The position numbers and the translations under genes were made by a program. A stretch of DNA of 64,000 nucleotides from Planctomycetaceae bacterium (lineage in GTDB: Bacteria > Planctomycetota > Planctomycetia > Planctomycetales > Planctomycetaceae): NCBI GenBank assembly GCA_020426325.1, contig JAGQQG010000026.1, positions 1-64,000 of the forward strand, written 5' to 3'. Under the pieces are notes generated by a model, which ran no database searches, had not been told where the DNA came from, and saw only the letters and a program-made list of their open reading frames with translations. Positions 38,799 through 39,187 of this stretch are shown piece by piece; within the stretch, counting starts at the first letter, position 1; each line of letters opens with the position of its first letter.

Positions 38799-38990
38799 TC
38801 AGCCGTCCCAAGTCTGATTCGCTCTTTCATTGATAGCATATTTCTTACATGCCTTCCGTCGAACCGAGCATGGCTTAGCCTTGGTTTGCCAGGAGCCGAG
38901 GTAATGGTCACGACCTGCGATGGAGACAACCGCTTTACCAGATGCCCGATGCTTCCGGTACTTTGGACCAGAGTTTTTGAGGGTCGGCAT
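38799..38990 (-). pseudogene. Tyrosine integrase, N-terminal fragment
   Basis: 63 residues from ATG 38990 (GGGAGAAAG ribosome site): MPTLKNSGPKYRKHRASGK-AVVSIAGRDHYLGSW. This is the characteristic opening of phage-type integrases found in large numbers in planctomycetes. After residue 40 the sequence diverges (KPCSVRRKACKKYAINERAN) and stops, so the SAM-like and catalytic domains are missing. It starts 124 bp past the 3' end of the tRNA-Val gene, transcribed in the same direction: a typical attachment-site position. Confidence 0.65.
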
Positions 38991-39113
38991 AGTACTTTCT
39001 CCCGTTTGAGAAACGCCAAAACGGTAAATACCATTTTGCTTCGATGAAACGGGGCGCACTGCCAACCAATGGCAGGTATTCTAAACGTAGAATTCAGCAG
39101 GACTTCAGTGAAG

Positions 39114-39187
39114 TGGGCGATGAGGGACTCGAACCCCCGACATCCACGGTGTAAACGTGGCGCTCTAACCAACTGAGCTAATCGCCC
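39114..39187 (-). tRNA. tRNA-Val (anticodon UAC)
   Basis: 74 bases folding as a full cloverleaf. The acceptor stem GGGCGAT/ATCGCCC pairs perfectly; D arm GCTCAGTTGGTTAGAGC; anticodon stem CCACG/CGTGG encloses loop TTTACAC, giving anticodon TAC for valine; T arm GGGGG-TTCGAGT-CCCTC. CCA is not encoded; the base after ATCGCCC is A. It is transcribed away from the core genes toward the integrase fragment and accessory region. Confidence 0.96.

Follow-up and report, generated by a model that had tools for sequence, protein, structure and literature searches.

The locus described here raises two questions: whether a tRNA-Val gene followed by the first codons of an integrase marks a place where an island once integrated, and whether the stress-response genes that now lie beside the integrase were carried by that island. 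The window, by which we mean the whole stretch of 64,000 nucleotides that was analysed (Planctomycetaceae bacterium, contig JAGQQG010000026.1, positions 1 to 64,000), comes from a genome designated G000, and was compared with four congeners of the same genus, G001–G004. G001 is a draft, and G002 and G004 are 96–99% complete. The first base of the window is also the first of its 65.7-kb contig, one of 424 in the draft genome, and the left edge of the window is therefore an assembly break, not the end of an island. We consider it very probable that the feature is a dead attL, that is, the decayed integrase-side attachment site of an island at tRNA-Val(UAC). The stress genes probably came to lie beside it as a separate unit, or by deletion or rearrangement.

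The tRNA-Val gene and the integrase remnant

ARAGORN and Rfam both identify an intact tRNA-Val gene with anticodon UAC at 39113–39187 on the minus strand (71.8 bits in Rfam), the 3′ end of which points to the left side of the window. Behind it on the same strand is the head of a planctomycete tyrosine integrase (38872–38990), cut off after about 40 codons. The frame starts with an ATG at 38990, reads MPTLKNSGPKYRKHRASGKAVVSIAGRDHYLGSWQTKAK..., and remains open to a stop at 38801–38799, while similarity to intact integrases stops near 38872. The 61-residue reading shows 58–60% identity to intact integrases of congeners over residues 1–40 (E = 3.7e-11 and 2.4e-9). The initial annotation had described a tRNA-Val(UAC) 3′ end followed by a planctomycete-type integrase head, and both the arrangement and the type of integrase are confirmed by ARAGORN, Rfam and the congener matches; the distance from the tRNA 3′ end to the integrase ATG is, however, 122 bp and not 124 bp. 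The two genes run in the same direction.

The remnant is truncated upstream of the catalytic integrase domain, which is missing, and a Pfam search with the 40 codons of the stump alone gave no match. In G004, where the same spacer and integrase start are found behind tRNA-Ala(CGC), the integrase is 393 residues long and apparently intact, and is recognised as Phage_integrase by Pfam and as an integrase by PHROG; members of the family are likewise assigned to Phage_integrase in Pfam. G003 has the same spacer and integrase start, again behind tRNA-Ala(CGC), with a broken integrase. The spacers of G003 and G004 are approximately 70% identical to that of the window.

A frame of only some 40 codons, with no Pfam match, could in principle have arisen by chance beside a tRNA gene. 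We regard this as extremely improbable, because the start, the spacing and the spacer motif all agree with those of intact integrases, and because a covariance model built from 47 family spacers, those of the window, G003 and G004 being left out, scores the window spacer at 58.5 bits (E = 3e-16), which places it among the spacers of the family.

Truncated integrase heads seem to be common in this family. G000 itself contains further decayed family integrases (L147 (C419), 6600–6870, and L150 (C416), 3045–3800), and G065 has a head-only remnant together with a tRNA 3′ half and spacer (L196, 4700–5330).

The attachment-site core

The proposed attL core, TTTACACCGTGGATGTCGGGGGTTCGAGTCCCTCATCGCCCACT, extends on the minus strand from the anticodon loop to the tRNA 3′ end plus a T (39112–39155). 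All 44 of its bases match the core that flanks an intact 11-kb island in G097 on either side. The core occupies the same part of the tRNA in nine islands of the family, a pattern that the window fits; judged by sequence, the core qualifies as a candidate attachment site of the Planctomycetia integrase family. The tRNA gene at the integrase end is intact, i.e., regenerated, as in an island of this kind.

The far end is missing. A search of the window and the draft genome that allowed up to 3 mismatches found neither an attR nor a displaced tRNA fragment, in agreement with the earlier remark that there is no obvious repeat of the tRNA 3′ end at the left edge. An exact 23-mer search allowing 3 mismatches returned the tRNA itself as the sole match genome-wide, and the tRNA-Val 3′ half is present in a single copy in the G000 draft. 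Candidates for a left-end repeat within the window were rejected, the best ungapped matches being at chance level. Since no attR was found, we classify the feature as a remnant attL and not as a complete island.

Related islands in Planctomycetia

The integrase family was found in 108 of 198 Planctomycetia genomes surveyed (E <= 1e-40). We examined tRNA linkage in 70 of the best family loci, of which 2 were cut by contig ends, leaving 68 that could be tested. In 54 of these, a full-length tRNA gene with the same orientation lies just upstream, mostly at a distance of 96–129 bp and up to 185 bp; reading the sequences by eye, we found a tRNA 3′ fragment upstream at 11 further loci, which is the pattern expected of tandem islands, and neither at 3. 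For comparison, 15% of the 8368 integrases in a published survey are adjacent to a tRNA gene (PMC2951348). At least 13 types of tRNA are used by the family: Met, Arg, Val, Lys, Ala, Gly, Pro, Leu, Phe, Asn, Ile, Thr and Asp.

Attachment repeats were sought in 11 islands, all from long contigs. In nine of them a second copy of the tRNA 3′ half lies downstream at the far end, giving islands approximately 11–46 kb long, and in these nine the repeat starts in the anticodon loop and terminates shortly beyond the tRNA 3′ end. G103, and probably also G097, has islands in tandem. It is because nine of 11 related islands repeat the tRNA 3′ half, one of them with the identical 44-bp core, that we read the window as a dead attL; together with the tRNA linkage, this upholds the original proposal of an element integrated at a tRNA 3′ end.

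The intact islands carry genes for a primase/helicase, DNA polymerase A, terminase small subunit, head maturation protease or a methylase. The islands of 11–14 kb in G097, G065, G031 and G103 (L240, L194, L255 and L252) contain few other phage genes among those scanned and, from their gene content, are possibly Planctomycetes phage satellites. Some of them resemble PICI-like satellites in having a primase/helicase, a head maturation protease or a terminase small subunit, although this likeness concerns the gene content of the related islands and the window keeps none of those genes. The phage and plasmid collections that were searched contained no match to the integrase family.

The closest parallel is with the tRNA-targeting tyrosine-integrase islands of the Islander set (PMC4383910), in which the tRNA is likewise restored and the integrase lies beside it, with a displaced 3′ fragment at the far end (here in nine related islands) and with tandem islands. 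The family core starts in the anticodon loop, where Islander places its anticodon-centred ‘A’ attachment subsite (PMC4383910). In contrast to those islands, the window copy has no attR and no integrase activity is expected of it. The order of tRNA first and integrase directly behind it in the same direction is also the ‘STI’ shape of KplE1 intS (PMC2951348), which shares a putative arm-type site in the spacer; the present family differs in that its spacer adds three nested covarying inverted repeats and in that one family uses at least 13 tRNA types.

On this basis, a tyrosine-recombinase island would have integrated by recombination between its attP and a site of approximately 44 bp that spans tRNA-Val(UAC) from the anticodon loop to the 3′ end, and the tRNA would have been restored by the copy of this sequence that the island brought with it. 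The integrase gene would then have stood 122 bp behind the tRNA in the same orientation, with a stereotyped arm region of inverted repeats between the two. At a later stage, the integrase would have been cut after about 40 codons and the far end (attR) lost, and DNA bearing a horizontally moving stress block now abuts the stump.

The spacer between tRNA and integrase

Alignment and the covariance model identify a conserved spacer motif at 39033–39109 (minus strand), which consists of three nested inverted repeats. In a structure-free alignment of 57 spacers, an outer stem, P1, encloses hairpins A and B (39078–39094 and 39059–39075 in the window, both on the minus strand); of these, RNAalifold unaided detects hairpin B, whereas P1 and A were recognised by inspection. 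P1 is partly mismatched in the window. Pairing is maintained in 79.5% of alignment cells, and the covariation score is 0.428, compared to 0.173 in shuffles (none of 500 as high) and 0.05–0.14 when the structure is slid along the spacers. Pairing reaches 95% in hairpin B, where one pair shows as many as 24 double changes. When 1.05 Mb was scanned with the spacer model, the strong matches that were traced proved to lie at integrase starts. A search of Rfam with 8 loci gave no spacer match up to E = 1.

Whether the fold acts as RNA or as DNA was approached from the ratio of G-U to A-C combinations, which is 22:10 in P1, 25:19 in A and 8:8 in B, a clear excess of G-U being found only in P1. Folding energies of single sequences are no better than those of shuffles (z from −0.8 to +1.2).

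A further inverted repeat, C, CAAAATGGTATTTACCGTTTTG, lies just before the integrase (39017–39038, minus strand), and its sequence varies from island to island. In eight of the nine islands, the last 75 bp of the spacer contain a word of at least 10 bases that is found again no more than 350 bp from the far end. These recurring words exceed in length those of 95% of shuffles, and in five of the eight islands the word is located 144–153 bp inside the far end. In G065 the shared word derives from hairpin B and not from repeat C. The far-end copies in related islands suggest that repeat C is probably an arm-type site of the integrase. A second copy of repeat C, sought as a hint of attR, was not found elsewhere in the window.

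What is new here is the stereotyped, covarying spacer of this family; we found no earlier description of a tRNA–integrase spacer of this kind in the literature searched, the coverage of which mostly leaves out subscription journals. We tentatively suggest, as an idea more likely wrong than right, that the spacer is a class-wide element that may work through its fold, either as a leader RNA that controls the integrase produced when transcription reads through from the tRNA, or as folded attachment-arm DNA. Covariation would keep the fold, while the sequence and the paired arm sites would drift with each integrase, so that one family could serve many tRNA genes.

A single model, comprising a tRNA 3′ half, a covarying spacer of about 120 bp and an integrase, thus locates the integrase end of islands in over half of the Planctomycetia genomes sampled. 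It gives exact ends for many of these islands, so that their cargo can be listed directly in a poorly mapped phylum, and it turns a lone integrase stump into a readable fossil of island integration. The covarying spacer and drifting arm sites also provide a natural series in which to follow how integrase and site change together.

Gene order around the tRNA

The first gene to the right of the tRNA encodes a molybdopterin dinucleotide-binding domain (39260–39625, minus strand) and is common to G001, G002 and G004. Homology of G001 and G002 to the window ends exactly at the tRNA 3′ end, beyond which G001 has a PFOR-type cluster and G002 an antiporter (both identified by eye from translations). 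At the tRNA-Val locus of G004 (L046 (C115), 170–243), a different integrase (203–1552) is directed toward the tRNA and terminates within it. The DNA at the tRNA-Val end varies in all four congeners where it was observed. Neither the G002 antiporter nor the G001 PFOR-type cluster can be taken as the ancestral left neighbour, since in G000 both are inside other contigs, and for this reason no ancestral order is fixed.

The genes to the right had been described as planctomycete core operons. The operons at 41376–61400 are indeed collinear in G001 (C88) and G002 (C102); however, they are not joined there to the tRNA-Val module (39111–41356), and synteny with G001 to the right of the tRNA breaks at approximately 41.36 kb. 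This break implies that general rearrangement contributes to the variability at the tRNA end. The initial annotation would have been contradicted by relatives carrying the same stress genes at this tRNA in an unbroken core order, and this is not what is seen, because the G001 stress genes are elsewhere and other DNA follows the tRNA in G002 and G004. The gene order is nonetheless scrambled on both sides of the tRNA, so that divergence at its end carries less weight than it would if synteny were conserved.

The stress-gene block

The stress-gene block occupies 1164–38866 and contains genes for DUF2254, VKOR, MscS/BON, a CheB-CheR-PAS kinase, DJ-1, AI-2E, a sigma-54 regulator, BrkB, DUF1206 and baeRF. 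It is absent as a block from G002–G004. In G001, four short contigs, separate from the G001 tRNA contig, cover nearly the whole block in order, collinear with the window at 81–92% identity. Identity between G000 and G001 at fourfold sites is 0.71 in the block genes, compared to 0.40 for 11 genes of the right flank and 0.41 for a 4-gene comparator cluster, a small comparator set, with the G001 block contigs lying apart from the tRNA contig in a draft. This difference suggests that the block moved horizontally after the lineages of G000 and G001 had parted, as far as can be judged from sequence comparison. GC content, proposed as a check on the island, shows a small step, from 0.552 for the left block to 0.576 on the right.

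The block meets the integrase remnant at 38866–38872, and the G001 copy ends at the position matching 38866. There it is followed by other mobile-type DNA and is not at tRNA-Val; the gene beyond the block end resembles the DUF6573 type (by eye). Because the right end of the block is the same in G001, away from tRNA-Val, we read the block as probably separate from the tRNA-Val element.

The initial annotation placed an island to the left of the tRNA. The patchy distribution of the block and its probable horizontal movement agree with this in part. If all or most of 1164–38866 were cargo of an island with a decayed integrase, its left end would lie beyond the contig, and the contig start at window base 1 leaves room for an attR further left; the block also directly abuts the stump, and is patchy and far closer to G001 than the comparator genes are. 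We nevertheless consider this unlikely, and the block is probably not cargo of the tRNA-Val element, because the integrase is broken exactly at the block junction, to within a few bases, the G001 block ends at the same base beside other DNA, the draft genome has no attR, and the intact islands carry primase and phage-like genes without those of the block. Within the limits of nine intact family islands we found none of the block stress genes, and no DUF6573-like neighbour.

A second alternative is that the block is a single inherited locus, and that its similarity to G001 comes from contigs of a closer relative misbinned into G001, which is a draft with the block on four short contigs apart from its tRNA contig. 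This we think improbable, and more so than the cargo explanation: the four contigs jointly span nearly the whole block in order, the block is missing from the nearly complete genomes G002 and G004, and fourfold-site identity is 0.71 in the block as against 0.40 and 0.41 in the comparators. Our preferred explanation is that the block arrived beside the dead attL as a separate unit, or through deletion or rearrangement.

To the left of the shared block, the start of an IS630-type transposase lies at the contig edge (1–260, minus strand; by eye from the reading frame), and the adjoining 261–1163 contains a frame resembling a broken gene. The ORF at 27043–27621 (plus strand) is probably not a gene, third positions being conserved at 0.93 while the protein is conserved at 77%. 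A DSP-type phosphatase gene is truncated in the window and whole in G001. A second cluster in G000 (L145, C11:12000–31999) contains paralogues of the block regulators, including a sigma-54 activator (73%), response regulators and DUF2254, and has a Phage_integrase gene at C11:31323.
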